Of a stretch of DNA of 15,505 nt, positions 551-15,505 are shown piece after piece. Positions within the stretch are counted from its first letter, which is position 1. Every line of letters begins with the position of its first letter. Made by a program: the position numbers and the translations under genes. The notes below the pieces were generated by a model. That model was given only the letters and a program-made list of their open reading frames with translations. It did no database searches and was not told the origin of the DNA. Source of the stretch: a bacterium (GTDB lineage: Bacteria; SM23-31; JAUVVT01); NCBI GenBank assembly GCA_030616165.1, contig JAUWXV010000066.1, forward strand, positions 1 through 15,505, in the 5' to 3' direction.

Positions 551-1474
551 ATGGAAAAAGTAATCGAAATAAGAAATCTGTCGAAAAATTTCAAGGATAT
601 CAATGCTGTTAATGAATTGGATATGGAAGTTTTTAAAGATGAAATGTTCTGTCTGGTCGGTCCTGATGGTGCGGGCAAAACCACTTTAGTTAGAGTATTA
701 TGTGGTATTTTGAAGCCAGATTCGGGTTGTTTTTCAATTTTCGGACTGGATGGGAGGAAAGATAGAAATAAGATTAAGAGAAGAATAGGATATCTTTCTC
801 AGAAGTTTTCACTTTATGGAGATTTAACAATTGATGAAAATATCAGTTTTTTTGCAAAGGTTCATAACGTAAAAGAATTCAAAGACGAAAAGGATGTATT
901 GTTAGAGAAGATGGGAATAGAAAAGTTTGGTAATAGACTTGCTGAAAGGCTTTCCGGCGGTATGAAAAAAAAACTCGCACTGGCATGTACTTTGATACAT
1001 TCCCCCGATATTCTTTTTCTCGATGAACCCACCACAGGGGTTGATCCTGTTTCCAGACGGGAGTTCTGGGAGATTTTGGCAGATTTAAAAAGAGAGGGTA
1101 TCACCATTCTTATCACAACGCCATATATGGATGAAGCTGAAAGATGTGACCGGGTTGCTTTTATGTATAATGGGAGTATTTTATCGTGCGATTATCCGCA
1201 TATTATAAAAGAAAAATTTGATAAAAGGATTATGGAGGTTGTTTGTTCACCGATAAGAGAGGTTTATAAATATATGGAAACAATTGAAAAGATTGAAAGC
1301 ATCCATATATTTGGAGATAGACTTCACCTGGTTTTTGATGAAGTGAAAATTTCAGTCCAGGAGATAAAAGAAGAATTGATAAAGAGAGATTTTAACATTT
1401 ATAACATCAGATTAATAAGTCCATCACTCGAAAATATATTTATAATGAAAATGGAGAAAAGAACGGGAGAATAA
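551..1474 (+). CDS. ABC exporter ATP-binding subunit 1 (YbhF N-half-like)
   Basis: Cytoplasmic ATPase of an ABC-2 type exporter, 307 residues. Walker A GPDGAGKTT spans 37-45, the Q-loop region is YLSQ at 81-84, the signature LSGGM is at 134-138, Walker B ILFLDEP is at 154-160 and the D-loop GVDP follows. The DPVSRREFW stretch after the D-loop resembles the YbhF-type drug/cation exporter ATPases. The switch histidine expected in TTH is replaced by proline (P191 in TTPYMDEAERC), so this subunit may form the weaker hydrolysis site of a heterodimer with the ATPase encoded at 2784-3725. It is the first gene of a tight operon; the TolC-like gene starts 3 bp after its stop. The roughly 85-residue C-terminal tail is of the usual kind in this family. 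Substrate is unknown. The family call is strong; the role as the degenerate half is inference. Confidence 0.9.
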   Translation: MEKVIEIRNLSKNFKDINAVNELDMEVFKDEMFCLVGPDGAGKTTLVRVLCGILKPDSGCFSIFGLDGRKDRNKIKRRIGYLSQKFSLYGDLTIDENISFFAKVHNVKEFKDEKDVLLEKMGIEKFGNRLAERLSGGMKKKLALACTLIHSPDILFLDEPTTGVDPVSRREFWEILADLKREGITILITTPYMDEAERCDRVAFMYNGSILSCDYPHIIKEKFDKRIMEVVCSPIREVYKYMETIEKIESIHIFGDRLHLVFDEVKISVQEIKEELIKRDFNIYNIRLISPSLENIFIMKMEKRTGE

Positions 1475-1477
1475 ATT

Positions 1478-2791
1478 ATGAAAATAAGATTATTAATTAT
1501 ATTAGTGCTTTTAGTCAATGCTAAGGTTTTATCGCAAGATATTGAAAAATACACTCTTGATTATTGTATTAAAAGAGCCCTTGAAAATAATCAGGATATT
1601 AAATCGACAGAATTTGATTTGATATCTGCCCAATCGAAGATATTGAGTGCCAAAACAGAGCGTTTGCCAACGGTGGATTTTTCCGGAAATTATTCACGTT
1701 TAAGCATTATCGACCCATTTTCCATTACTATGCCAACAGGTAAAGCAATAGATATTTTCCCTGTGATACTTAACAATTATGGCTTAAACCTTACATTAAA
1801 ACAAGCTGTTTTTACAGGGTCAAGGATAAAGTCTAATTATGAGATTGCGAAAAATACGTTCTTAGCAAAAGAGAATAATTTAGAAGAGGTCAAAAATAGT
1901 ATAAAGTATGCGATAGAAGATTACTTCTGGAGACTTGTTTATGCTATTGAATCGAAAAGAGTGGTTGACGAGTCGATTGAACTTACAAAAATTCATCTTC
2001 AAGATGTGAAAAATCTTAAAGAAAATGGCATGGCATCGGAAAATGACGTTAAAAAAGTAGAGGTACAGTTATCGAATATGGAACTGATGAAGACCACTAT
2101 TGAGAAGAATATTGAATTGAGCAGAGCAGTTTTGTGTAGAACGATGAATGCTCCAATTGAAACAAGTTTTGAACCCGATTATGATCTCCCATCTCCGGAA
2201 TTTAATTACAATTTTAAAGAGATTACTTCGAAAGCGATTGAAAAAAGACCGTTATTAAAATCGATGGAATTTTACTTGCAATCATCAGAAGAGGCGAAAA
2301 AGGTAGTAAAATCAAGTTTTTATCCTTCTGTTTATTTGGTATGCAACTATAATTATGCCAGACCAAATAGAAGAATTTTACCTATGAAGGATAAATGGGC
2401 AGATACCTGGGATGCCGGAGTTGTTGTCCAGTTTACGATATGGAACTGGGGTAAAAAGAGAATGGATTACGAGTCCGCTCAGAACAATTTTTTAAAAGTT
2501 AAAACAGATTATGAAAATCTACAGAGTCAGATTGAACTGGATATTAAAAGAATATTCCTGGATATAAATGAATCATTAAAGAGGTATCAATTAAGCAATA
2601 AGATGGTTGACCAGGCAGAAGAGAATTACAGGATTTCCAGAGATAAATATAAAAATGGGATGTTGTTAAACTCAGAGTTCCTCGATGCCGAGGTTGATTT
2701 GCTAAAATCAAAATTGGAAGTAACAAAAAGTATAATGGATTTCAATATAAAAATGGCAGAATTAAAAAAGGCGGCTGGAATATATGAATAA
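1478..2791 (+). CDS. TolC-family outer-membrane efflux channel
   Basis: Outer-membrane efflux protein of 437 residues, near the usual TolC length. Residues 1-19 form a Sec signal peptide (basic start, hydrophobic run LLIILVLLV, likely cleavage near S19/Q20). The mature start (YTLDYCIKRALENNQDI) is the typical opening of the family, and the repeat is seen twice: the first half has KTERLPTVDFSGNYS (about 59-73) and the second has KSSFYPSVYLVCNYNYARP (about 278-296). Long charged helical stretches between them fit the periplasmic coiled-coil barrel. A GGGAG ribosome site lies in the last codons of the upstream ATPase. The stop overlaps the next ATPase start by 8 bp, so the two are translationally coupled. 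A channel gene between the two ATPase genes is an unusual order. It would normally need a periplasmic adaptor, and none is encoded here. Confidence 0.9.
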   Translation: MKIRLLIILVLLVNAKVLSQDIEKYTLDYCIKRALENNQDIKSTEFDLISAQSKILSAKTERLPTVDFSGNYSRLSIIDPFSITMPTGKAIDIFPVILNNYGLNLTLKQAVFTGSRIKSNYEIAKNTFLAKENNLEEVKNSIKYAIEDYFWRLVYAIESKRVVDESIELTKIHLQDVKNLKENGMASENDVKKVEVQLSNMELMKTTIEKNIELSRAVLCRTMNAPIETSFEPDYDLPSPEFNYNFKEITSKAIEKRPLLKSMEFYLQSSEEAKKVVKSSFYPSVYLVCNYNYARPNRRILPMKDKWADTWDAGVVVQFTIWNWGKKRMDYESAQNNFLKVKTDYENLQSQIELDIKRIFLDINESLKRYQLSNKMVDQAEENYRISRDKYKNGMLLNSEFLDAEVDLLKSKLEVTKSIMDFNIKMAELKKAAGIYE

Positions 2792-3725
2792 CGACATTTC
2801 GATATATGTAGAGGGCTTAACAAAGAGGTTTGGCGACTTTACTGCTGTTAGAGATGTATCCTTTGAAGTCAAAAAGGGAGAAATATTCGGCTTTCTGGGT
2901 GCTAATGGAGCAGGAAAATCAACAACTATTAGAATGCTAATTGGAATTTTGGAGCCGACTTCAGGTTATGCAATTGTGGGTGGATATAATATAATCGAAA
3001 ATGTTGAAATGGTAAAACAGTCAATAGGATATATGTCGCAGAGGTTTTCGCTTTATGAAGATTTAACTGCAAAGGAGAATCTGAATTTTTACGGCGGCAT
3101 CTATGGATTGGATGAAAAAGAGCTAAAGAACAGAGTTTCATGGGCAGTAGAAGCAGCAGATTTATCCGATAAAGAAGATGTGCTGGCAGGAGAGTTAGCC
3201 GGCGGGTGGAAGCAGAGGCTCGCACTTTCCTGCGCTCTTCTGCATAAGCCTAAAATCGTATTTCTTGATGAGCCTACCAGCGGGGTCGATCCAATTTCAA
3301 GGAGAAACTTCTGGAATCTGATACAATCAATCACCGATGAAGGGGTAACGGTATTTGTTACAACGCATTATCTTGAAGAAGCAGAGTATTGTAACAGTCT
3401 TGCATTTATTCACAACGGAGAGATAATTACCAAGGGGACACCGTCTGCGTTAAAAAAGAATGTAATAAAAAGAAAGGTATTCGAAATAGAAAGCCAAGAG
3501 CCTGATAAATTGATTGATTGTTTCAAAGCAGAAGAATTTGTGGATGATATATCAATTTTGGGATTAAAGGTTCATATTATTCCAAATAGAGAAGATATAA
3601 ATAAAGATTATATAAGTGGATTTTTGAAAAACAAGAGTTTAGAATTTAAAAAGATAGACGAGATAGAGCCTTCTCTGGAGGACGTATTCATTGAACTTAT
3701 AAAATTAAAGAGAGAAAATGTATAG
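2784..3725 (+). CDS. ABC exporter ATP-binding subunit 2 (YbhF C-half-like)
   Basis: Second ATPase, 313 residues, homologous to the one at 551-1474. Walker A GANGAGKST is at 39-47, YMSQRFSLY at 83-91, a variant signature LAGGWKQRL at 138-146, Walker B IVFLDEP at 158-164, GVDP at 167-170, and the switch histidine is present in TTHYLEE (H195). Compared with subunit 1, this one keeps the histidine while its signature serine is alanine. This fits a heterodimer or a split YbhF, whose two halves are fused in Escherichia coli. The start overlaps the TolC-like stop by 8 bp. The stop lies in ATGTATAG, where the downstream permease's ancestral start codon (3718) overlapped it. That start is now the first of three tandem copies. 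Confidence 0.9.
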   Translation: MNNDISIYVEGLTKRFGDFTAVRDVSFEVKKGEIFGFLGANGAGKSTTIRMLIGILEPTSGYAIVGGYNIIENVEMVKQSIGYMSQRFSLYEDLTAKENLNFYGGIYGLDEKELKNRVSWAVEAADLSDKEDVLAGELAGGWKQRLALSCALLHKPKIVFLDEPTSGVDPISRRNFWNLIQSITDEGVTVFVTTHYLEEAEYCNSLAFIHNGEIITKGTPSALKKNVIKRKVFEIESQEPDKLIDCFKAEEFVDDISILGLKVHIIPNREDINKDYISGFLKNKSLEFKKIDEIEPSLEDVFIELIKLKRENV

Positions 3726-3747
3726 ATTAGCCGTAATAATATTAAAA

Positions 3748-3770
3748 GGGGTGAACAAGTTCACCCCTAC
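3748..3770. repeat. Palindromic element copy A (GGGGTGAAC core, CCCTAC edge)
   Basis: GGGGTGAACAAGTTCACCCC (3748-3767) has perfect 9-bp arms around AA and is followed by TACACGAAGGAG. It interrupts what was a continuous ATPase-permease junction and leaves a truncated 21-codon reading frame from the ATG at 3718 to the stop at 3781-3783. The GAAGGAG that follows it serves as a Shine-Dalgarno-like site for the next start copy. Confidence 0.8.
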
Positions 3771-3818
3771 ACGAAGGAGTTAGAGAGAAAATGTATAGAT
3801 TAGCCGCAATAGTTAAAA

Positions 3819-3841
3819 GGGGTGAACAAGTTCACCCCTAC
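3819..3841. repeat. Palindromic element copy B (GGGGTGAAC core, CCCTAC edge)
   Basis: The palindrome at 3819-3838 is identical in sequence to copy A at 3748-3767, and the following TACACGAAGGAGTTAGAGAG is also identical. GAAGGAG (3844-3850) lies 11 bases before the true permease ATG at 3862, so this element supplies the best ribosome site visible for that gene. The hairpin could also slow ribosomes or protect mRNA between the ATPase and permease cistrons. Confidence 0.8.
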
Positions 3842-3861
3842 ACGAAGGAGTTAGAGAGAAA

Positions 3862-4986
3862 ATGCATAGATTAGCTGCAATAATATTAAAAGAGTTTAAC
3901 CAGATTAAAAGGGATAAGCGAACTTTATTGCTTTTAATATTTTTTCCTGCTTTCTTACTTTTAATTTTCGGTTATGCTATCGATTTTGACGTTAAAAATG
4001 TAGAAATAGGGGTTCTTGACCTTGATAATTCAAAAGAGAGTCGGGAATTTATAGAGAAATTTACTCTGTACGATCATTTCATTTTAAAATATCATCTAAA
4101 CACATTTAAGGAAATTGATTATTATCTTGATTCGGGTCTGGCTACTTTATGTATAGTGATTCCAGAAGATTTTTCGGATGAACTTAAACAAGGCGACAAT
4201 GTGAGTATTCAAATTATTATCGACGGAACAAATTCTAATGTCGGGATGACAGTGCTGGGCAATCTCAGGGCTTATATAACTGATTATTCTAATAACTTAT
4301 CAGCCAATGCACTTAAGAAGGTTGGAATCCATAAGGAACCTGTTCCTGTAGAATTGATTCCAAGAGTATGGTATAATCAGGAATTGAAGAGCGCAAAGTT
4401 TTTGATACCCGGCTTGATAGGATTTATAATGATGATAGTTTGTGTTATTACCACGGCTCTTTCAATTGTTCGTGAAAAAGAAAGATTTACCATAGAACAG
4501 ATAAGCGTTTCACCTATAAGACCGCATGAATTAATAATTGGTAAAACATTTCCCTATATGATTATTTCTTTAATAACCATGATATTAATAATAATCTTAG
4601 GGATAATATTATTCGATGTTACAATAAAAGGGAATCTTATATACCTATTTGTAACATCTTTAGTTTTTATAATTGGTGCACTCGGCTTAGGGATGATGAT
4701 TTCTGCAATTACAGACTCTCAGCAGGTGGCTTTTATGGTTTCTATTATTGTTACTATGCTTCCATCAATAATTCTTTCTGGTTTTATTTTCCCCCTGAAC
4801 AGCATGCCCAAGATAATTCAATTCATAAGTTATATTGTCCCGTTGAGATATTATTTAGTTATTTTAAGAAGTATTATTCTAAAAGGAAGCGGTTTAATCA
4901 GTTTTTGGGACCAGTTAATTTATTTAACAATATTTTCTTCAATAATGATAATAGTTAGTTCTATTAAATTAAAGAAAATCCTGTAA
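3862..4986 (+). CDS. ABC-2 type exporter permease 1 (YbhS/YbhR-like)
   Basis: Inner-membrane subunit of 374 residues with ABC-2 topology: cytoplasmic amphipathic start, TM1 at about 21-40, a large extracytoplasmic domain (about 41-178, with IGVLDLDNSKESREF and IIIDGTNSNVG as in this family), then five membrane segments near 180-202, 229-251, 259-281, 289-311 and 351-368. The conserved REKERFTIEQISVSPIRPHE loop (204-223) corresponds to the family's EREKGTxExLxVTP motif. LSGFIFPLNSMP (305-316) is also typical. The start at 3862 is chosen because the two earlier ATGs with the same N-terminal residues (3718, 3791) run into stops. It is 46 percent or so identical by eye over conserved stretches to the following permease, with which it should pair. 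Substrate is unknown. Confidence 0.9.
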   Translation: MHRLAAIILKEFNQIKRDKRTLLLLIFFPAFLLLIFGYAIDFDVKNVEIGVLDLDNSKESREFIEKFTLYDHFILKYHLNTFKEIDYYLDSGLATLCIVIPEDFSDELKQGDNVSIQIIIDGTNSNVGMTVLGNLRAYITDYSNNLSANALKKVGIHKEPVPVELIPRVWYNQELKSAKFLIPGLIGFIMMIVCVITTALSIVREKERFTIEQISVSPIRPHELIIGKTFPYMIISLITMILIIILGIILFDVTIKGNLIYLFVTSLVFIIGALGLGMMISAITDSQQVAFMVSIIVTMLPSIILSGFIFPLNSMPKIIQFISYIVPLRYYLVILRSIILKGSGLISFWDQLIYLTIFSSIMIIVSSIKLKKIL

Positions 4987-6102
4987 ATGAAAAAGATAAG
5001 ATATTTAATAAAAAAAGAATTCTTGCAGTTGATAAGAGATAAGAAGTTATTACTTCCGATATTTTTGGCTCCTATTCTTCAGTTAATTTTACTCGGTTAT
5101 GCAGTAACATTTGATGTTAAAAATATATCGTTCTCGGTTTATGATATGGATAATAGTTACAGTTCAAGAGAGTTAATTTCAGATTTCACCTCTTCAGGAT
5201 ACTTTGTCATGAAATCAAAAATGGATAATTATGATGAACTTGAACAGAATATTCAAAAAAACAAAGTTTCAATGGGACTTGTAATTCCTGTAAATTTTGA
5301 GAAAAATATAAAAACAGGTAAAACAATTCCATTACAACTTATAGTTGACGGCAGTGATGCAAATACTTCCACTATCGGATTGGCTTACGCTAAAGGGGTA
5401 ATTAGCAAATTTAATCAAAATCTCTTGAAGGAAAAAAAACTTCCTTTAAAAGTTTCAAAAATAAATGCTGAATTTCGCTCCTGGTATAATCCGGAACTAA
5501 AAAGCAAATATTTTATGATACCCGGAGTTTTGTGCCTTTTACTGATGCTTGTAACGATGATACTTACCTCTATGGTAATCGTTAAAGAAAAAGAAATTGG
5601 TACCATGGAACAGTTGATAGTAACACCGATTAAGCCAGTTCAGTTAATTGCCGGAAAATTAATCCCCTTTATTATAATTGGCTTTATAGATATTAATCTG
5701 GTTTTATTCGTATCATATTTCTGGTTTGGTATTCCGATTAAAGGGAGCATAATTTTGTTATTTGTTTTAAGCGGAACCTTTATATTGACAACATTAGGAT
5801 TAGGTCTTTTTATATCAACCATATCGAAAACACAACAGCAAGCGATGATGACCGCGGCTTTCTTTTTTATGCTTCCTTTTATGTATCTTTCCGGTTTTAT
5901 ATTTCCAATTGAAAATATGCCGAAAATACTACAGTATATTACTCATTTGATTCCTCTTAAATATTTTTTAATAATAATAAGAGGGATTTTCCTGAAAGGG
6001 AATGGATTTAATCTGCTATGGGATGAATTTATAATATTATTATTATTCGGTATCGGAATTTTCACAATAAGTGTTTTGAGATTCAGAAAGAGGCTGGAGT
6101 AA
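4987..6102 (+). CDS. ABC-2 type exporter permease 2 (YbhR-like)
   Basis: Second inner-membrane subunit, 371 residues, with the same topology as permease 1: TM1 about 21-40, extracytoplasmic domain about 41-172 (FSVYDMDNSYSSREL, LIVDGSDANTSTIG), then membrane segments beginning near 175. The VKEKEIGTMEQLIVTPIKP loop (199-217) is closer to the family consensus than in permease 1, and LSGFIFPIENMP is conserved. Its ATG follows the upstream stop directly (TAA then ATG) with no clear Shine-Dalgarno, so translation is probably coupled. It would form the membrane heterodimer with permease 1, energised by the two ATPases. It is the last gene of the operon. Confidence 0.9.
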   Translation: MKKIRYLIKKEFLQLIRDKKLLLPIFLAPILQLILLGYAVTFDVKNISFSVYDMDNSYSSRELISDFTSSGYFVMKSKMDNYDELEQNIQKNKVSMGLVIPVNFEKNIKTGKTIPLQLIVDGSDANTSTIGLAYAKGVISKFNQNLLKEKKLPLKVSKINAEFRSWYNPELKSKYFMIPGVLCLLLMLVTMILTSMVIVKEKEIGTMEQLIVTPIKPVQLIAGKLIPFIIIGFIDINLVLFVSYFWFGIPIKGSIILLFVLSGTFILTTLGLGLFISTISKTQQQAMMTAAFFFMLPFMYLSGFIFPIENMPKILQYITHLIPLKYFLIIIRGIFLKGNGFNLLWDEFIILLLFGIGIFTISVLRFRKRLE

Positions 6103-6359
6103 TAGTTTGACCTTACACACAAAACCGTTATAAATTTTAATTTTATGGATTCCCCCGAGTACTCGGGGGAATGACAGTTTTTAAATGATATTTTTAATTA
6201 TTTTTTAAAAAATATTTCCGTAAAACCCTATAATGATTAGATATAGATTCAATATACCTCACCATGTATTTACTTACTTGATGTATTGTTTCTGTTGAAA
6301 TGGCCTATTAATCAATACTTATCTGTTAGAAATTTGAGTTTGTTTAAATTTTTTTCTGA
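6103..6359. other. Convergent intergenic region
   Basis: No gene is seen. It separates the rightward ABC operon from the leftward aminotransferase genes and holds the 24-bp palindrome described separately, plus a pure AT palindrome (A, six T, six A, T; 6200-6213). No strong rho-independent terminator for the leftward genes is visible. Confidence 0.6.
6149..6172. repeat. Perfect 24-bp palindrome (ATTCCC...GGGAAT), possible operon terminator
   Basis: ATTCCCCCGAGT and its exact complement ACTCGGGGGAAT abut at 6160/6161, giving a GC-rich stem in otherwise AT-rich DNA. It is followed by GACAG and TTTTT (6178-6182) on the plus strand, so it could end transcription of the ABC operon 46 bp after its stop. 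The ATTCCC/GGGAAT ends and the trailing GAATGACA match a widespread intergenic repeat type, like the dRS3 repeats of Neisseria but four bases longer in the middle. Confidence 0.65.
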
Positions 6360-7718
6360 TTATACCAGTTTATCTCTGTTCTCGTAGATTTTCAAGATAG
6401 CGTCGGCGATGTCATCCATATCTTTCTTGGTTCCAATGAAAAATTCACCAGAAAACCCCATTGTTTCTTCACAGAGTTGGTCACACTCCGGGCAGTGATT
6501 CTGTTCACGGTATTTATTCAGTCTCTCCTTTGAATAAATTTTCTGAAAACTCTTAGAATTTAGAGTTTCTTCAATTAAGCCCTCTTTATTTATTGGAAGA
6601 CCTTCTATAACTCCTAATCCCCATGAACAGGAAATTCCTTCAGCCCTCAGTGCAGAGAGAAATTTTTCCCGCGGGATGCCGTTAAATTGCTCTTTTTTGT
6701 ACCTCAAGGCATACTTATAGTATGCAGTTCTTGTTGTTTCTTTATAGTCCTTTCGTGGAATTATACCTGGTATCTCTTTAATTCTCGATGTTAAATAGTC
6801 TGCGTTTTCGGAGCGCTTTTCAGTCTGCTCTTCAACATGGTAAATTTGAGTGTCTAACAAGGCAGCATGAATTGTGGAAATTCTGTATTTAGTTCCCAAT
6901 ATGGGATGCCCACCTCTGTCCCGCGGCATATACTTTCCCCTTGGTCTTCCAAAGTTATGGAAAGAGTAACATCTGTCAATTACTTTCTCGTCATCTCCAA
7001 GAATCACTCCACCTTCACCACAGGTGAGATTTTTACTGGTCTGGAAACTAAAACATCCAAGGTCGCTAAGTGTTCCAACCTTTTTGCCTCTCCATTCTGC
7101 AAAGATTGCCTGACATGCATCTTCTATCACTTTAAGGTTATACTTTCCTGCAATAGCATTAATTTTATCCATATTCGCAACTCCACCGTTGATATGGACT
7201 GGCAGAATTGCTTTTGTGTTTTCCGTGATTTTTTCTTCCATTTTATCCGGATTTATCTGAAATGTTTCAGGGTCTATATCCACGAAAACCGGCAGTGCAT
7301 CTTCTAATAGAATTGCATCCACCGTTGCAACAAAAGTATAAGGAGTAGTAAGAACTTCATCTCCAGCGCCTATTCCAAGTGCGTGGAGAGCGGCATTGAG
7401 TGCCTGGGTTCCAGACCCGGTAAGAAGGCAGTATTTTGATCCCATCAATTCGGCAAACCTTTCTTCAACAGTTGTGACCAATTTACCCCTCGACCATCTT
7501 CCACTGCGCAGTGCAGATAGAACTGATTTTTCGTCTGTTTCATCAATGATTGGCCAGGAAGGAAAGCGTTTAGTTCTAACGGGATTACCGCCAAGGACTG
7601 CAAGTTCACCTGCTTTTTTATTTCCATAGGCAGTAATTCCGCCCGACGAAACAGCAGCAATAGTGCCTGCCGACGCAGTGCCTAAAAATTGCCGCCTGGT
7701 TAAATTATTTTTTTTCAT
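6360..7718 (-). CDS. DegT/DnrJ/EryC1/StrS-family PLP aminotransferase with Tat signal (paralogue A)
   Basis: Fold-type I PLP enzyme of 452 residues. Residues 1-32 form a twin-arginine signal (LTRRQFLG at 6-13, then an Ala/Gly-rich hydrophobic stretch), so the folded protein is predicted to be exported. The enzyme part begins near LAVLGG (39-44). Phosphate-binding GSGTQAL is at 101-107, the PLP-ring aspartate is D200 in IEDACQA, and the Schiff-base lysine is K229 in SFQTSKN followed by CGEGG, so catalysis looks intact. A Cys-containing CPECDQLC segment lies near the C-terminus. The family normally uses nucleotide-sugars or related ketones in the cytoplasm; a periplasmic location is hard to reconcile with that, and the substrate is unknown. 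The start has GGAG (7728-7725) six bases upstream. It lies 76 bp downstream of paralogue B and is probably cotranscribed. Confidence 0.85.
   Translation of the reverse strand: MKKNNLTRRQFLGTASAGTIAAVSSGGITAYGNKKAGELAVLGGNPVRTKRFPSWPIIDETDEKSVLSALRSGRWSRGKLVTTVEERFAELMGSKYCLLTGSGTQALNAALHALGIGAGDEVLTTPYTFVATVDAILLEDALPVFVDIDPETFQINPDKMEEKITENTKAILPVHINGGVANMDKINAIAGKYNLKVIEDACQAIFAEWRGKKVGTLSDLGCFSFQTSKNLTCGEGGVILGDDEKVIDRCYSFHNFGRPRGKYMPRDRGGHPILGTKYRISTIHAALLDTQIYHVEEQTEKRSENADYLTSRIKEIPGIIPRKDYKETTRTAYYKYALRYKKEQFNGIPREKFLSALRAEGISCSWGLGVIEGLPINKEGLIEETLNSKSFQKIYSKERLNKYREQNHCPECDQLCEETMGFSGEFFIGTKKDMDDIADAILKIYENRDKLV
7650..7718 (-). repeat. Tat-signal coding segment, copy A
   Basis: This 69-base stretch, from the ATG through the Tat signal, matches 9085-9153 at 66 of 69 positions. 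The downstream enzyme parts differ at roughly half of their residues. The gene ends also match (IYENRDKL then stop, then ATAATCAGAAA), so whole-gene duplication with later homogenisation of the 5' end is likely. Confidence 0.85.
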
Positions 7719-7794
7719 TTCTAACTCCGATTATTGTGATAAAATTATAAAATACTTTTCAAGAAACTTCTCGCTTTTTTTATCTTCTTTCTGA

Positions 7795-9153
7795 TTATGT
7801 TAGTTTATCTCTGTTTTCATAGATTTTCAAAATGCCATTGTAAATATTATCTGTATCTTCTTTTGTTCCGGATAAAGCCCAGTGCCATATTCCGATTGAT
7901 TCTTTACAGCGTTGAGCATTATTCGGGCATTCATTTTCTTCACGGTACTTTTTAAGTCTTTCATTTGAAAAAATTTTCTTAAATGTTCTTGAATTTAATG
8001 TATTCTCAATAACTGGTTCTTTATTTAATTCAAAAATGCTTTGGCGAAATGTTGGAATTCCCTCTGCATTTAGAGCCTTTTCAAAAACATCCAGTGAAAC
8101 ATCATTAAAGTGTTCCTTTTTATATCTGAAATCATAAGTATAATAAGTTGCCTTTCCTTGACCTTCATAATGCTTTTGAGGGAGTATTCCAGGAATATCT
8201 TTAAGATTTGATGTTAAATATTCTGCATTTTCAGTTCTCCGATTAACACGTTCTTCAAGTAAATCCAGCTGAGGCAGCAATACAGAACCCTCAAACTCAT
8301 TCATTCTATACTTAGGAGCTCCAATCATCCATCTTCTCCTTGCTGGGCTGCCTGTTTCGGTTTCAACTCCTAGTGTATGGAAAGAATAACACCTATTCAT
8401 TAACTCGTCGTCATTACCAATAGCTGCTCCTCCTTCTCCGCAGCCAATAATCTTACTGGCCTGAAAACTAAAACATCCTATGTCGCCCAAGGAGCCACAC
8501 TTTTTACCTTTGTATTCTGTGAAAAGTGCCTGACATGCATCTTCAACTACCATAAGATTATGCTTTTTTGCAATTTTATTGATTCCGTCCATATCAGCTG
8601 ATAAGCCTGCTATATGAACGGGTTCAACAGCTTTTGTATTGCCGTTTATCTTTTCCTCCATTTTGGCAGGGTCCATCTGAAATGTCTCAATATCTATATC
8701 CACAAATACTGGTAGAGCATTTAAAAGAATAATCGCATTCACTGAAGCAATAAATGTGTATGGTGTAACAAGAACCTCATCTCCGGCATCAACTCCGACA
8801 GCATATAATGCAGAGTGTAATGCTTGTGTTCCTGAACCGGTTCCAACACACTTTTTAGTCCCGGTTAACTCGGCTAACCTCTTTTCAAATGTGCTGACCT
8901 TCTTTGCACCTCTTTCAAACCTATACCATTTACCGCTCTTATATGTAGAAAGAAGCGATTCCTCAATAGATTCATGAGTTTGGGGCCATGGAAAAGATTT
9001 ATTTACTGCACGCTGGCCGCCAAGGATTGCAAGTTTTGTGGCATCTTTACTCGTTTTTCCACAAGCAGGAATTGCCCCTGATGCAACAGCAGCAATAGCA
9101 CCTGCCGACGCAGTGCCTAAAAATTGCCGCCTGGTTAAATTGTTTTTTTTCAT
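7795..9153 (-). CDS. DegT/DnrJ/EryC1/StrS-family PLP aminotransferase with Tat signal (paralogue B)
   Basis: Paralogue of the gene at 6360-7718, also 452 residues. The first 18 residues are identical (MKKNNLTRRQFLGTASAG), giving a Tat signal. Here the end of the signal reads GAIPACG, so C31 could be a lipobox cysteine (I-P-A-C), making this a candidate Tat lipoprotein; the position is tyrosine in paralogue A. Enzyme motifs: LAILGG at 41-46, GSGTQAL at 106-112, PLP aspartate D205 in VEDACQA, Schiff-base lysine K234 in SFQASKI, CGEGG at 238-242. All catalytic positions are present. A CPNNAQRC segment near the C-terminus matches the CPxxxxxxC region of the family. The Shine-Dalgarno GAGGAGA (9167-9161) lies 7 bp upstream and a promoter candidate is at 9216-9243. 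Substrate is unknown. Confidence 0.85.
   Translation of the reverse strand: MKKNNLTRRQFLGTASAGAIAAVASGAIPACGKTSKDATKLAILGGQRAVNKSFPWPQTHESIEESLLSTYKSGKWYRFERGAKKVSTFEKRLAELTGTKKCVGTGSGTQALHSALYAVGVDAGDEVLVTPYTFIASVNAIILLNALPVFVDIDIETFQMDPAKMEEKINGNTKAVEPVHIAGLSADMDGINKIAKKHNLMVVEDACQALFTEYKGKKCGSLGDIGCFSFQASKIIGCGEGGAAIGNDDELMNRCYSFHTLGVETETGSPARRRWMIGAPKYRMNEFEGSVLLPQLDLLEERVNRRTENAEYLTSNLKDIPGILPQKHYEGQGKATYYTYDFRYKKEHFNDVSLDVFEKALNAEGIPTFRQSIFELNKEPVIENTLNSRTFKKIFSNERLKKYREENECPNNAQRCKESIGIWHWALSGTKEDTDNIYNGILKIYENRDKLT
9085..9153 (-). repeat. Tat-signal coding segment, copy B
   Basis: Partner of the segment at 7650-7718, differing at three of 69 bases. Two of the differences are adjacent and change a threonine (copy A) to an alanine (copy B) at residue 19; the third is silent in an asparagine codon. 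Such DNA-level identity next to a much more diverged coding region points to recent gene conversion or strong constraint on this sequence. Confidence 0.85.
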
Positions 9154-9311: not shown

Positions 9312-10640
9312 TTATCTCTCCTTTGCCGTTTGCATTTTCGTCCAGTCCATATCTGGTTTTTTTTCTATCTTCGTCACTTTAATCTTTCTAACTTCATCAA
9401 CATTTTCTACAACCTTCTTAAAGGCATTAATATACTGGTCCAACAAATCTTTCTCTGCCTGGGGGAAGGTAGGCAGAGCCAGCAGTTCTTGATGTAGTTT
9501 TTCTGTGACAGGTAAATCTCCCCGGTTATAGGTTACTTTTCTCTTTACGTGTTGACAATTCCAGGGACATCCCTTTCCCCACATATCAGACTCCTGAAAA
9601 ATAGGCTGAAGATGCAACAATTCATACCTTTCAGTTGTAACTTCAACGCCTTCTGCCTGCAGGGCAGCAATGAAGTTTTCCCTCTCTAATCCTCCAAGTT
9701 GTTCTGATTTGTATTTGATTCGGTAACAATAATAAGTCCGTTTGACATCTGTTGGAGATTTAATTGTCTCTATGCCTTTAATTTTTCCCAATTCGGAGTT
9801 CAAATACTCATGATTTTCATTTCTCAGTTTATTTCTTTCATCCAGATGCTTAAGTTGTACCCTGATGATTGCTGCGGCTAAAGGATGAATCCTGTACTTA
9901 TAGCCGAAACAGGTATGAGAAAATTTTCGATATCTGGAATCTTCGGGTAAACCCGGTAACCTTTCATAATGTCCAAGAGTCACCGCTCTTTCATAATATT
10001 CCCGATTATCCGTGATTAGCAATCCTCCCTCAATAGCAGGTAACAATTTAGTAGCCTGGAAACTAAAACAGCCGATACCGCCGATTGTTCCTATCTTTTT
10101 ACCTTTATATTCTGCTCCGTGAGCATGTGCTGCGTCTTCTATAACTTTTATATTATACTTTTGAGCAATATCCATGATTTCATCCATAGCGCAGGGCAAA
10201 CCACAAAGATGAACCACAACAATTGCTTTTGTTTGGGGAGTAATTTTTTTTTCAAAATCTTGAAGGTCTATATTTAATGTTTCCGGATTTACCTCCGCAA
10301 ACACCGGGATTGCATTACAGGATAGTATTTGCATAGTAGATGCCCAAAAAGTAAGAGAAGGGGTTATGACTTCATCACCGGGACCAATCCCCAAGGCAAA
10401 AAGGGCACTGTGAATTGCAGAGGTGCCATTATTATGAGCCAATACATATTTTGACCCGGAGTAATTTTTGAATTCCTCTTCGAACCTGTATGCTTCCTCA
10501 TAAAAGGAATAATCAGGCATCTGCATTACCCTTTTTACTGCTTCGAAATCCTCATCACCAAATTGGGGCCACTTCAGAGATTCAGTTTGGTCTAAAGCCA
10601 CAGCCCTCTCTCCTCCGTTAATGGCTAACTTTTCACCCAT
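9312..10640 (-). CDS. DegT/DnrJ/EryC1/StrS-family PLP aminotransferase, cytoplasmic (paralogue C)
   Basis: PLP-dependent aminotransferase of 442 residues without a signal peptide; it begins directly with the enzyme (MGEKLAINGGERAV), so it should stay in the cytoplasm. Phosphate-loop NNGTSAIHSAL is at 70-80, PSLTFWAS at 94-101, the PLP aspartate D169 in IEDAAHAHGAEYKGKK, and Schiff-base lysine K198 in SFQATKL with EGG following at 204-206. The C-terminal part carries a CPWNC segment and a longer tail (about 30 residues, ending KMQTAKER) than its two Tat-tagged neighbours. A good Shine-Dalgarno AAAGGAGA (10656-10649) lies 8 bp upstream. The family makes amino-sugars or aminocyclitols from keto precursors using Glu or Gln; the exact substrate cannot be read. 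It is more diverged from paralogues A and B than they are from each other. Confidence 0.85.
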   Translation of the reverse strand: MGEKLAINGGERAVALDQTESLKWPQFGDEDFEAVKRVMQMPDYSFYEEAYRFEEEFKNYSGSKYVLAHNNGTSAIHSALFALGIGPGDEVITPSLTFWASTMQILSCNAIPVFAEVNPETLNIDLQDFEKKITPQTKAIVVVHLCGLPCAMDEIMDIAQKYNIKVIEDAAHAHGAEYKGKKIGTIGGIGCFSFQATKLLPAIEGGLLITDNREYYERAVTLGHYERLPGLPEDSRYRKFSHTCFGYKYRIHPLAAAIIRVQLKHLDERNKLRNENHEYLNSELGKIKGIETIKSPTDVKRTYYCYRIKYKSEQLGGLERENFIAALQAEGVEVTTERYELLHLQPIFQESDMWGKGCPWNCQHVKRKVTYNRGDLPVTEKLHQELLALPTFPQAEKDLLDQYINAFKKVVENVDEVRKIKVTKIEKKPDMDWTKMQTAKER

Positions 10641-10866: not shown

Positions 10867-12117
10867 TTACCCGAAATAATCTAACAGACCAATTACACCG
10901 TAGTATGACATAATAATTGAAAAAACAATTGCTCCAATACATGCAAAATTCATTAGCGCCGAATTTTTGTATTCTCCCATATACTTCTGGTTTAAAAGGA
11001 TAGTGATTGCAATAGTTGACAATGGAAGAATCACTGCTAAAAGTGCCATAGTTATAATCATAAGAAATACGGGCTTGGTTTTGATATATGGTCCAACCAA
11101 TCCAATCAGGATACCAATTGAAACAAAAAGCCGACTGATTCCGGATGCAGGATTAATACCTGAATTCGTATAATCGGAGATGACCCAGGGCGCGATCAGG
11201 ATAGTCGGGATAAGACTCGATAAACCTGCGCCAACAATACCAATAATAAAGAGAGAATTCGCAAATCCCCCAGCCAATGGTTCAAGAGTCCTGATCATAT
11301 CAACAGCGTCTTCAACCGGTTTATTAATTACATATAAAGTACCAGCGGCACATATCATAACGGCGATACTGAGAATAAACATCATAAATACCGATATCAC
11401 CGTATCAGTGAGTGCCTGTTTTCCCTGACCGAGCCTCCATCCCTTTGCCTTAATGATGATGCTGCGACAATATAATATGGCTGAACCAAAGGTTGTACCA
11501 GCCATGCCAGCCACAATTAATGCTGCATTCGGTTCTTTCGGAACTCTTGGAACCAGTCCCGTTACAATCTCCCGCCATGAGGGAACTACCAAAAACGTGG
11601 TAGCCACAAAACAAAGCCCCATAATCGACACCAACACCGCCAATAGTCTTTCCAGATATTGATAGCTTCCCGTCCAGAGAATAGTAAAAAGAATGGCTGA
11701 TATGAATATGGTCAAACCAAATTTTATTCCCCCGGCATAATATCCGGCAGTATATTTAATCCATTCTTGAAGCAGATCTACTATAATAGCCATCAGCCCG
11801 GTAATACCGACAAACTCGGCTACTATAACAGCAGCCATTATAAAAAGACTGACCTGTTTACCAAATGGAAATCGCTGCTTGATGGCATATAAGATTGTAT
11901 CACCCGTAACCAGCGTATATCTGCTAAAAGCCAGGATTCCTATGAATGTAAAAAGACAGGATAATACTACTGTCCATGTCAGTGACATCCCCCACCTCGA
12001 CCCTGCCGAAGCCATTGTGGTCACGCTCCCTGTACCAATATTATAACCAATCAGAAATAATCCCGGTCCCAATAAAGCTAAAAGTTTACTAAACTGCTTT
12101 AAACCTCTTTTTCCCAT
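10867..12117 (-). CDS. Nramp-superfamily transporter lacking the canonical metal-binding motif
   Basis: Inner-membrane protein of 416 residues with about 11 hydrophobic segments. The N-terminal LLALLGPGLFLIGYNIGTGS (12-31) and the following ASAGSRWGMSLTWTVVLSC align well with Nramp TM1 and TM2. The metal-binding DPGN of TM1 is replaced by IGTG (27-30), and the TM6 MPH-type motif is replaced by AGTTFGSAILYCRS (206-219). Canonical Mn/Fe transport is therefore unlikely; loss of these residues is known in Nramp-related proteins with other substrates, such as the Mg-transporting NRMT group. The start has only a weak GGGA-like site at about ten bases, but the N-terminus matches the family. It lies 226 bp upstream of the aminotransferase genes on the same strand, so a shared transcript is possible but not shown. 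Confidence 0.8.
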   Translation of the reverse strand: MGKRGLKQFSKLLALLGPGLFLIGYNIGTGSVTTMASAGSRWGMSLTWTVVLSCLFTFIGILAFSRYTLVTGDTILYAIKQRFPFGKQVSLFIMAAVIVAEFVGITGLMAIIVDLLQEWIKYTAGYYAGGIKFGLTIFISAILFTILWTGSYQYLERLLAVLVSIMGLCFVATTFLVVPSWREIVTGLVPRVPKEPNAALIVAGMAGTTFGSAILYCRSIIIKAKGWRLGQGKQALTDTVISVFMMFILSIAVMICAAGTLYVINKPVEDAVDMIRTLEPLAGGFANSLFIIGIVGAGLSSLIPTILIAPWVISDYTNSGINPASGISRLFVSIGILIGLVGPYIKTKPVFLMIITMALLAVILPLSTIAITILLNQKYMGEYKNSALMNFACIGAIVFSIIMSYYGVIGLLDYFG

Positions 12118-12624: not shown

Positions 12625-15505
12625 ATGAGTAAACCTTCATATGGAGAGTTAGAAGAACGTGTAAAAGAACTTGAGAAAGAGAATTGCAAACTAAAGAAAG
12701 CAGATGAAAGATTAAAAGAGAGCGAAGAGCATTTTCGAAACATTTTTGATGGTGCCAGAGATGGAATACTATATGCCAATAAAAAAGGTATTGTGCTTGA
12801 CGTTAATCATTCCTTCACAAAAAAAACAGGGATTTCAAGAAAAGATATTATAGGCAAACATACTTTAAATCTTATAAAAGAATTTGTAGAGATTAAAGAT
12901 GTACCCTGGATGTTGAAATTAGCCAAGCAGATTCTATCCGGAGTTCCTATAGAACCATTTGAATTAGAGTACAAGGATAAAATATTAGAAATAAGTTCTC
13001 TTTTTCTCGGAATAGAGAAATATGGAATTATAGGAGTAATTCGTGACATCACCAAGCGCAAGAAATCGGAGGAGGCGATACGGGAGGGTGAGAAGAGATA
13101 CCGTATGCTTTACGAGTCTTCCCGGGACGGTATTGCGACAGCCAACCTAAAGGGTTTCATCACTGAGTGCAACAAGAGTTACACTGACATGTTAGGATAC
13201 AGCTGCGAAGAGTTAAAGAAAATCAGGTACCAGGATATCACGCCTTCAAAGTGGCATGATTTCAACGAGAAAATATTCCAAGAGGCAATGGAACGCGGGT
13301 ATTCGGATGTGTTCGAGAAGGAATATATTAGGAAAGACGGTACAGTTTTCCCAGTCTCCCTGCACACATGGCGTATAGATGACAAGGATGGTAATCCAGT
13401 AGGAGTAGCCTTCATAATCAGAGACATCACAGAACACAAGCAGGCGGAAAGAGCTTTACGAGAAAGAATAAAGGAACTTAATGGATTATACAATTTAGGT
13501 AAATTATCAGAACAAGTTGAAGATTTAGAAGAATTGTTTCATAGACTAATAAACGATGTTATTCCCGTAAGTATGCAGTTTCCAGATAAGACAATTGCTA
13601 TAATAGAGTTAGATAAGAAAAAATATTGCAATAAAAGGGTAAATGCATATGATAATTTTCCACATTTATCCGCACAAATTATAGTGAAGAAAAAGCAAAG
13701 AGGTAGTTTAACTATTGGTTATATTGAAGAGCTTCCATTCATAGAAGAATTTGAACAAAAACTTATTAACGGGTATGCAGATAGATTAGGAAAAATTATT
13801 GAAAGAAGGGAAACAGAAGAAACGCTGCGTGAGAGTGAAGAACGTTTTCGTGGACTGATTGAGAGCACAAGTGATTGGATCTGGGAAGTGGATGCGAACG
13901 GTATCTACACATACAGCAGCCCGAAAGTCAAAGATATTTTAGGGTATAGTCCAAAGGAAATCATCGGAATTACACCGTTTGATCTCATGCCTCCAGAAGA
14001 GGCAAAATGCGTAGCTGCAAAGTTCAGGACTATCGCTGAGTCCAGGAAACCATTCGAAAGATTGGAGAATATCAATCTGCATAAAGATGGACGACTGGTA
14101 GTACTGGAAACAAGCGGTGTGCCAATATTTGACATCAAAGGACAGTTTTGTGGTTACCGTGGTATTGACCGTGACATCAGCAAGCGCAAGAAAGCAGAGG
14201 AAGCGCTTCGGGAGAGTGAGGAGCGGCTTCGATTACTGGTAGAAAGCGCCGAAGATATTATTCTCATGCAGGATACAGAGGGAAAATATTTATACTATAA
14301 TGGACCATCCCTGTATGGCATAGAGCATAATGAAGTAATTGGCAAGACTCCTTTTGATTTTCACAGCCCAGAAAATGCAGCCAAATTTATGGAGAATCTG
14401 GAGAAAGTAGTGAAAAGCAGGGAGAGCGTGACTTACGAAAGTCAAGTGGACTGGGGGGGAGAGAAATCATGGTTCATAGATCAAATGTCTCCAATAAAAG
14501 ATTCTGCTGGTAATATCAAGGGTGTAGTTACTATATCCAGAAACATCGCCGAACGCAAGAAGGCAGAGGAGGCGCTGAAGAGGTCAGAGTTAGAATTAGC
14601 AATCAGGAATCGAATCTCCAACATATTTCTTACTATTCCTGATGCTGAAATGTACGGAGAAGTGTTGCAAATTGTTCTGGAAACCTTGAATAGCAAATAT
14701 GGGGTTTTCGGATACATTGACGAGAATTGGGCATTTGTCTGCCCCTCGATGACCAGAGATGTTTGGTGGCAATGTCATATTCCTGACAAAGAAATCGTAT
14801 TCCCTCGTGAAAAATGGGGTGGTATCTGGGGCCGGGCTCTTATAGAGAAGAAGAGCATTTATTCTAACGAACCTTTCAACGTACCCAATGGGCATATTCC
14901 TATATTCAGGGCTTTAGATGTGCCCATTATACATCGAGGCGAGGTCATTGGAAATCTTCTTGTCGGCAACAAGGCGACGGACTATGATGAGAGGGACCAG
15001 GAGTTGCTGGAAACTATTGCCAACCATATAGCTCCAGTGTTGCAAGCAAGGTTAGAGAAAGAGAAAATAGAAAACAAGCGCAAGAAGGTAGAGCAGGCAC
15101 TTAAAAAAGCTCATAATGAATTGGAGTTACGAGTTAAAGGAAGAACTGCTGAACTCAGGAAGATAAATGAACAGTTGAAACATGAGATAATCGAGCGCGA
15201 ACTGACAGAAGAAGAATTAAAAAGTTCACGCGAACAGTTACGTAACCTTTCCACACATTTGCAAACAGTGAGAGAAGAAGAAAGGAGGCACATTGCGCGT
15301 GAGATTCATGATGAATTGGGAAAAGCGATGATGGTTTTGAAGATGGACTTATCTTGGTTGGAAAATAAATTACCTAAAGGGAAAAAGTCGCTGTTGGAGA
15401 AGACGAAATCGATGTCAGGTCTCATTAATGAAACCATTCAGACTTTGCAAAGAATTTCTACAAAATTGAGACCGAGTTTACTTGATGATCTTGGTCTCAC
15501 GGCAG
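12625..15505 (+). CDS. Cytoplasmic multi-PAS/GAF sensor histidine kinase (HisKA_3, NarL-type), 3' end cut by window
   Basis: The frame is open for 960 codons from ATG 12625 to the window end. An N-terminal coiled coil (5-33) precedes PAS1 (about 34-147), PAS2 (156-272), a degenerate GAF-like segment (282-395), PAS3 (405-523), PAS4 (532-645), a GAF domain (656-808; GGIWGRALIEKKSIYSNEP, then VPIIHRGEVIGNLLVG), a coiled coil (about 810-880) and a HisKA_3 domain. In HisKA_3, REEERRHIAREIHDELGK (883-900) places the phosphoacceptor at H895, and KLRPSLLDDLGLTA ends the visible part. PAS units end in the family motif RDIT/RDIS followed by a KRKKAEEAL-type linker. No transmembrane segment or signal peptide is seen, so it senses a cytoplasmic signal. 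The HATPase_c domain must lie beyond the edge. Partner regulators of this class are usually NarL/LuxR-type; none is in view. Confidence 0.9.
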   Translation, partial: MSKPSYGELEERVKELEKENCKLKKADERLKESEEHFRNIFDGARDGILYANKKGIVLDVNHSFTKKTGISRKDIIGKHTLNLIKEFVEIKDVPWMLKLAKQILSGVPIEPFELEYKDKILEISSLFLGIEKYGIIGVIRDITKRKKSEEAIREGEKRYRMLYESSRDGIATANLKGFITECNKSYTDMLGYSCEELKKIRYQDITPSKWHDFNEKIFQEAMERGYSDVFEKEYIRKDGTVFPVSLHTWRIDDKDGNPVGVAFIIRDITEHKQAERALRERIKELNGLYNLGKLSEQVEDLEELFHRLINDVIPVSMQFPDKTIAIIELDKKKYCNKRVNAYDNFPHLSAQIIVKKKQRGSLTIGYIEELPFIEEFEQKLINGYADRLGKIIERRETEETLRESEERFRGLIESTSDWIWEVDANGIYTYSSPKVKDILGYSPKEIIGITPFDLMPPEEAKCVAAKFRTIAESRKPFERLENINLHKDGRLVVLETSGVPIFDIKGQFCGYRGIDRDISKRKKAEEALRESEERLRLLVESAEDIILMQDTEGKYLYYNGPSLYGIEHNEVIGKTPFDFHSPENAAKFMENLEKVVKSRESVTYESQVDWGGEKSWFIDQMSPIKDSAGNIKGVVTISRNIAERKKAEEALKRSELELAIRNRISNIFLTIPDAEMYGEVLQIVLETLNSKYGVFGYIDENWAFVCPSMTRDVWWQCHIPDKEIVFPREKWGGIWGRALIEKKSIYSNEPFNVPNGHIPIFRALDVPIIHRGEVIGNLLVGNKATDYDERDQELLETIANHIAPVLQARLEKEKIENKRKKVEQALKKAHNELELRVKGRTAELRKINEQLKHEIIERELTEEELKSSREQLRNLSTHLQTVREEERRHIAREIHDELGKAMMVLKMDLSWLENKLPKGKKSLLEKTKSMSGLINETIQTLQRISTKLRPSLLDDLGLTA
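13042..13102 (+). repeat. PAS-linker repeat copy 1 within the kinase gene
   Basis: Encodes RDITKRKKSEEAIREGEKRYR between PAS1 and PAS2. It is closely similar at DNA level to 14170-14230; the first 24 bases (CGTGACATCA, one mismatch, then CAAGCGCAAGAAA) match except for one base. Related shorter copies lie at 14542-14583 and about 15074-15100. Confidence 0.7.
14170..14230 (+). repeat. PAS-linker repeat copy 2 within the kinase gene
   Basis: Encodes RDISKRKKAEEALRESEERLR between PAS3 and PAS4 and matches copy 1 at 13042-13102. These recurring helical linkers are the likely recombination points for adding or swapping PAS modules. Confidence 0.7.

Follow-up and report, generated by a model that had tools for sequence, protein, structure and literature searches.

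Two neighbouring DegT/StrS-family aminotransferase genes with predicted Tat signals, and the linkage of their relatives to a ceramidase-fold hydrolase family

The 15,505-nucleotide bacterial contig JAUWXV010000066.1 (assembly GCA_030616165.1, GTDB lineage SM23-31; JAUVVT01), analyzed over its whole length and called here the window, carries two adjacent genes, A and B, for pyridoxal phosphate (PLP) dependent aminotransferases of the DegT/DnrJ/EryC1/StrS family, both beginning with a predicted signal for export by the twin-arginine translocation (Tat) system. The two proteins are 56% identical and match the PF01041 profile over the full domain (320.2 bits for A and 291.5 bits for B, curated cut-off 19.8). 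Their features, with the evidence in brackets, are as follows.

6360..7718, reverse strand: gene A, predicted Tat-exported DegT/DnrJ/EryC1/StrS PLP aminotransferase, 452 amino acids (PF01041, Tat clade, active-site residues, model and fold)
7620..7718, reverse strand: Tat signal region of A, residues 1-33 (twin arginine R8-R9 at 7692-7697)
7119..7121, reverse strand: aspartate D200 of A (VIEDACQ), contacting the PLP nitrogen (alignment of the clade)
7032..7034, reverse strand: Schiff-base lysine K229 of A (SFQTSK) (alignment of the clade)
7795..9153, reverse strand: gene B, second predicted Tat-exported DegT-family PLP aminotransferase, 452 amino acids, of another subclade (PF01041, tree, active-site residues)
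9055..9153, reverse strand: Tat signal region of B with lipobox-like PACG (twin arginine at 9127-9132)
8452..8454, reverse strand: Schiff-base lysine K234 of B (SFQASK) (alignment of the clade)

The N-termini of A (MKKNNLTRRQFLGTASAGTIAAV) and B (MKKNNLTRRQFLGTASAGAIAAV) share the start MKKNNLTRRQFLGTASAG, so that the RRQFLG signal noticed in the original prediction is present in both proteins as TRRQFLG; a G/A-rich run follows, and then AYG in A and the lipobox-like PACG in B. Both have what is expected of a Tat substrate, namely an RR-x-hydrophobic motif, a moderately hydrophobic stretch and a start codon, the first ATG being preceded by a putative ribosome-binding site (CGGAG in A, GAGGAG in B). 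Codons 2-60 of A and B contain no ATG, GTG or TTG, which excludes a start 3' of the signal and makes the signal part of the protein; the later in-frame starts named beforehand as a possible refutation are thus absent. The genome of A and B (G000) has a TatC gene (217 bits). Export of A and B is judged very likely. The DNA of the two signal regions (7620-7718 and 9055-9153) is 89% identical while the bodies of the genes, which belong to different subclades, are only 43–74% identical, a contrast that points to gene conversion or to an exchange of the signal segment.

Relatives were gathered by a scan of genome contigs and by whole-genome searches, and a tree was built from the domain cores, excluding the signal. 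A and B fall into different subclades of one clade of 41 rows (Shimodaira-Hasegawa-like approximate likelihood ratio support 100), hosted by Planctomycetota, Bacteroidota and one further phylum. Of these, 38 have a readable N-terminus, and each of the 38, down to approximately 45% identity to A, has the RR signal; the three others are cut by contig ends. Two labels were corrected by eye (L122 as non-Tat, its open reading frame having been extended upstream, and L012 as truncated at the end of its contig). No RR signal is present in the nearest sister rows, and Tat signals recur at two other positions in the tree, hence at least three changes of the signal state. Conservation of the signal, which the original prediction proposed to check in orthologues, is observed across the clade, with a sharp boundary at the closest sisters. 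Seven copies of the clade are present in the genome of A and B and about eight in its one family relative (below, the sister genome); the distribution is patchy, with four of the 61 sampled genomes of one planctomycete class having members. One planctomycete locus (L038, 5168-9320) contains three Tat-DegT genes in a row, each from a different lineage.

The PLP aspartate and the Schiff-base lysine, said in the original prediction to be kept, are indeed retained in both proteins (D200 and K229 in A, D205 and K234 in B) and are invariant across the Tat clade, the latter position being lysine and not the histidine of the dehydratase branch. K229, D200, E199, S224, Q203 and the GEGG motif (A numbering) are conserved at or close to 100% across the clade, and the phosphate-loop residues are retained in A and B. 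A pseudo-enzyme that has lost its catalytic residues was considered and rejected, the residues being kept. In the AlphaFold2 model of A (predicted local distance difference test 90.8), residues 1-33 form a low-confidence helix outside the folded body. The best folds for this model are RbmB, AHBA synthase, the sugar transaminases 7b0d/7b0m, BtrR and Fic25 (Z 48–50), and VIA-align (Z up to 50, root-mean-square deviation 2.2 over 395 residues) confirms the DegT family fold. Among solved structures, the best profile matches are the 2-deoxy-scyllo-inosose aminotransferases BtrR/RbmB (404/401/398 bits), followed by an entry with 323 bits, and lower by WbpE (267 bits) and ArnB (260 bits). The 2-deoxy-scyllo-inosose aminotransferases use nucleotide-free cyclitols, in keeping with a substrate located outside the cytoplasm; the premise that the family acts on nucleoside diphosphate (NDP) keto-sugars was too narrow. 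With this set of residues, A and B are likely to be catalytically active.

Members of the Tat clade are linked, defined as lying within 3 kb, to genes of a PF04734-like family with the neutral-ceramidase fold, which we call CER. A CER gene is within this distance of 19 of the 41 members, where the density of CER genes would predict 0.61 (Poisson P about 4e-22), and in the sampled class CER also stands beside two of four further Tat members. In the sister genome, the orthologue of A is part of a CER-DegT-DegT-CER block (L018). On the CER tree the linked genes are spread over about five well-separated groups, and the linkage is therefore not one inherited pair.

The fold of CER is that of neutral ceramidases (Foldseek, TMq about 0.7 to 2zws and 4wgk; 0.69 for 2zws), and the zinc ligands are retained: HxH and the second histidine in 60 of 60 rows, the glutamate in 54 and the tyrosine in 58. 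In the catalytic-serine column, serine is found in two of 60 rows and mostly N, D, V or T in the others, and CER has 459 amino acids compared to 646 in ceramidase, the C-terminal part of the latter being missing. Identity with true ceramidases was rejected on these two grounds, and CER appears to be a metal-dependent hydrolase of the neutral-ceramidase superfamily, presumably acting as an amidase. For most genes of this ceramidase-like family (loci L132-L151 and others), in which the zinc ligands are kept and N, D, V or T stands in place of the serine, annotation as ceramidase is probably wrong. At another locus (L104, 1645-3921) one 758-amino-acid protein combines a Tat signal and a xylose-isomerase-type TIM barrel with a ceramidase-fold domain.

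The partners tend to share a compartment. An export signal is present in all 21 readable CERs beside Tat-DegTs and absent from nine CERs beside cytosolic DegTs; among unlinked CERs, two of 20 have no signal; and at loci L030 and L163 both DegT and CER carry Tat signals. The raw Fisher P values for this match are small but overstated, since Tat is monophyletic among the CER-linked DegTs and few contrasts are independent, and we do not rely on them. The DegT tree yields a single independent contrast. The CER tree yields one with support, or three if the best tree is followed, and every contrast points the same way; the compartment match is consistent rather than independently proven.

Further neighbours are genes of keto-sugar and glycan metabolism. 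In three loci a clade member has a Gfo/Idh/MocA dehydrogenase gene with a Tat signal close by, at a distance of 10 bp (L106), 61 bp (L107) or 52 bp (L114), and cytosolic Gfo/Idh/MocA genes adjoin cytosolic DegTs in L014, L124 and L168. In Parabacteroides sp. Marseille-P3160, a chromosomal locus at 4.13–4.18 Mb of NZ_LT799418 (L112, L113, L029) harbors three Tat-DegTs and three CERs together with GH20, GH123, SusD, GH16, a Tat-Gfo/Idh protein, NagA (above the cut-off) and a NagB-like protein. Cytosolic versions (L155-L158) form an operon in which a NagK-like kinase and a SIS isomerase are followed by CER and two DegT genes. On contig C24 of the same genome as A and B, a 3-keto-disaccharide hydrolase gene (PF06439) and another Tat-DegT are ~4.3 kb apart. 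The original prediction did not expect NDP-keto-sugars or similar cytoplasmic metabolites in the periplasm; for keto-sugars as such there is precedent, periplasmic 3-ketoglycoside catabolism having been described (PMC9007349). Taken together, the loci point to amino-sugar glycan catabolism and keto-sugar chemistry outside the cytoplasm, and the amino-sugar catabolic context favours the direction from amine to ketone.

The original prediction offered, as one of several possibilities, active PLP enzymes that are exported in the folded state and work outside the cytoplasm on a substrate that is not a nucleotide, and this appears to be the best-supported reading. On balance we consider it probable that A and B are competent, Tat-exported, extracytoplasmic transaminases of a nucleotide-free keto/amino sugar or cyclitol, with CER as partner in relatives. 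They would fold and bind PLP in the cytoplasm, leave it via the Tat system and work beyond the cytoplasmic membrane, either free in the periplasm or, for B, possibly lipid-anchored. The partner in relatives would be the exported metal-dependent CER hydrolase, most likely an N-deacylase exposing the amine, and in some loci a Tat-exported Gfo/Idh/MocA dehydrogenase may interconvert hydroxyl and keto groups; jointly, they would make sugars derived from glycans exchange their hydroxyl, keto, amine and N-acyl groups prior to uptake. More tentatively, these activities may amount to a self-contained extracytoplasmic amine exchange, in which a Tat dehydrogenase with bound NAD, a Tat-DegT with bound PLP and an exported CER N-deacylase strip or swap amino groups, a parallel cytosolic version operates in other lineages, and A and B are two specialised transaminase copies; this scheme is a real possibility, though somewhat less likely than not.

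Several observations weigh against the favoured reading. Roughly every second clade member lacks a CER within 3 kb. A and B are among these, and no CER gene lies anywhere on their 15.5-kb contig; the evidence for a pathway shared with CER is good at the level of the clade and indirect for A and B. On the trees, the compartment match comes down to between one and three independent contrasts, and on contig C249 a CER with an export signal stands beside a cytosolic DegT, to which it is transcribed convergently. An amino donor or acceptor (glutamate/glutamine or a keto acid) would be required outside the cytoplasm. Tat-signal Gfo/Idh genes may be common in these genomes generally. The neighbouring glycoside hydrolases vary by locus (GH106, GH2, GH20, GH123), so that no single substrate stands out.

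The alternative that survives best, although we regard it as unlikely, is that the exported active enzymes work in the biosynthetic direction and aminate a keto group on an exopolysaccharide, an envelope glycan or a secreted small molecule, as the cytoplasmic pairs WbpB/WbpE or NtdC/NtdA do with their substrates. The characterised relatives (2-deoxy-scyllo-inosose aminotransferases, AHBA synthase, WbpE) are biosynthetic and rank high in the structure lists. WbpB and NtdC are dehydrogenases of the Gfo/Idh/MocA type. The 3-dehydrogenase WbpB and the aminotransferase WbpE form an oxidise-then-aminate pair (PMC10622841), which the Tat-Gfo/Idh genes beside Tat-DegTs mirror. However, the linked gene encodes a hydrolase and not an acetyltransferase or glycosyltransferase, and the polysaccharide-degradation genes of the Parabacteroides locus (GH20, GH123, SusD, NagA) argue for breakdown. 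The known pairs also differ from the loci described here in being cytosolic, in using UDP (uridine diphosphate) sugars or sugar phosphates, and in having no ceramidase-fold partner.

Improbable, in our view, is a second alternative, already raised in outline in the original prediction, that the Tat-like start merely anchors or inserts the protein, or that the fold now serves binding or sensing, with no catalysis outside the cytoplasm. DegT was first described as a regulator, the signal-peptide cleavage sites are variable, and B has the lipobox-like PACG; yet the PLP-binding and catalytic residues are conserved in the 41 members and linkage to exported enzymes recurs, and the full conservation together with the shared compartment of the partners makes this explanation the less likely one.

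A chance or vestigial Tat look-alike at the N-terminus of a cytosolic NDP-sugar enzyme is very improbable in view of the conservation of RR in 38 of 38 members, the sharp clade boundary and the Tat rows elsewhere in the tree, as well as the fixed start sites, the presence of TatC and the exported neighbours. Turnover of sphingolipids or amino-lipids, with CER as a true ceramidase and DegT acting on the released base, would accord with the PF04734 match, the ceramidase fold and the zinc ligands, but is likewise very improbable given the loss of the serine nucleophile and of the ceramidase C-terminal part, the existence of signal-less cytosolic CERs, and the preference of known DegT enzymes for sugars, cyclitols and similar polar ketones.

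Our favoured assignment of A and B as extracytoplasmic sugar or cyclitol transaminases has partial counterparts among known systems. Aminotransferases are generally taken to be cytoplasmic, PvdN and PtaA being rare exceptions that, as far as is known, belong to an aminotransferase family other than PF01041. Both are PLP enzymes of Pseudomonas that modify the pyoverdine side chain and are exported folded by Tat, PtaA being an ordinary transaminase that is active in the periplasm (PMC6206403). Their likeness to A and B is confined to the mechanism and to the folded export with cofactor; their substrate is the glutamate side chain of a siderophore, whereas A and B are of a sugar/cyclitol type with many copies per genome and linkage to glycan genes. 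Tat-exported transaminases are thus already known; a literature search found, within the library covered, no relevant paper on Tat-exported DegT/StrS enzymes or on PF04734 together with DegT. BtrR and RbmB are the nearest relatives by profile (404 and 398 bits) and fold (Z 49–50), and share the PLP motifs and a nucleotide-free ketone substrate, but they are cytosolic enzymes of antibiotic biosynthesis with no signal peptide and about 30% identity to A and B. The periplasmic 3-ketoglycoside pathway (LacABC, DUF1080/PF06439) resembles the proposed one in its keto-sugar chemistry outside the cytoplasm (PMC9007349) and differs in that no amino-group transfer is known there.

A whole clade of sugar-type aminotransferases, with up to about eight copies per genome and members in several phyla, is thus marked for export and tied to amino-sugar glycan genes and to the CER family. 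If the favoured reading holds, the keto-sugar pathways known from outside the cytoplasm would be extended by amino-group chemistry, a function could be given to many genes annotated as "ceramidase" in Planctomycetota and relatives, and the source of the extracytoplasmic amino donor or acceptor would become a testable question. The Parabacteroides strain with three copies makes the pathway open to test.

Upstream of B on the same strand lie two further genes.

9312..10640, reverse strand: gene C, cytosolic PF01041 homologue with no signal, 442 amino acids, used for comparison (PF01041, tree)
10867..12117, reverse strand: Nramp-family permease, upstream of C (PF01566, 193 bits); a link to A and B is unproven

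C begins at the domain itself (MGEKLAINGG) and is 37% identical to A. It had been described as the cytoplasmic paralogue next door, which holds for its position and its lack of a signal; as a direct comparison it is more distant than that description implied, standing in the tree outside both the Tat clade and the nearest cytosolic sisters of that clade.

Contig C249 (29,942 bp) has one PF01041 gene split over its two ends (L016/L017), and because of this it may be circular or an assembly loop. In the window, an exporter cassette on the forward strand (551-6102), comprising two ABC ATPases, a TolC-like protein and two ABC-2-type permeases (identities assigned by eye to the translated genes), is transcribed convergently to the DegT genes and ends in a strong hairpin resembling a terminator (6149-6172). 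At 12625-15504 on the forward strand, an open reading frame that runs off the contig encodes a sensor-kinase-like protein apparently made up of several PAS repeats; a similar PAS-type protein adjoins another Tat-DegT in the sister genome (L095, 2093-3685).

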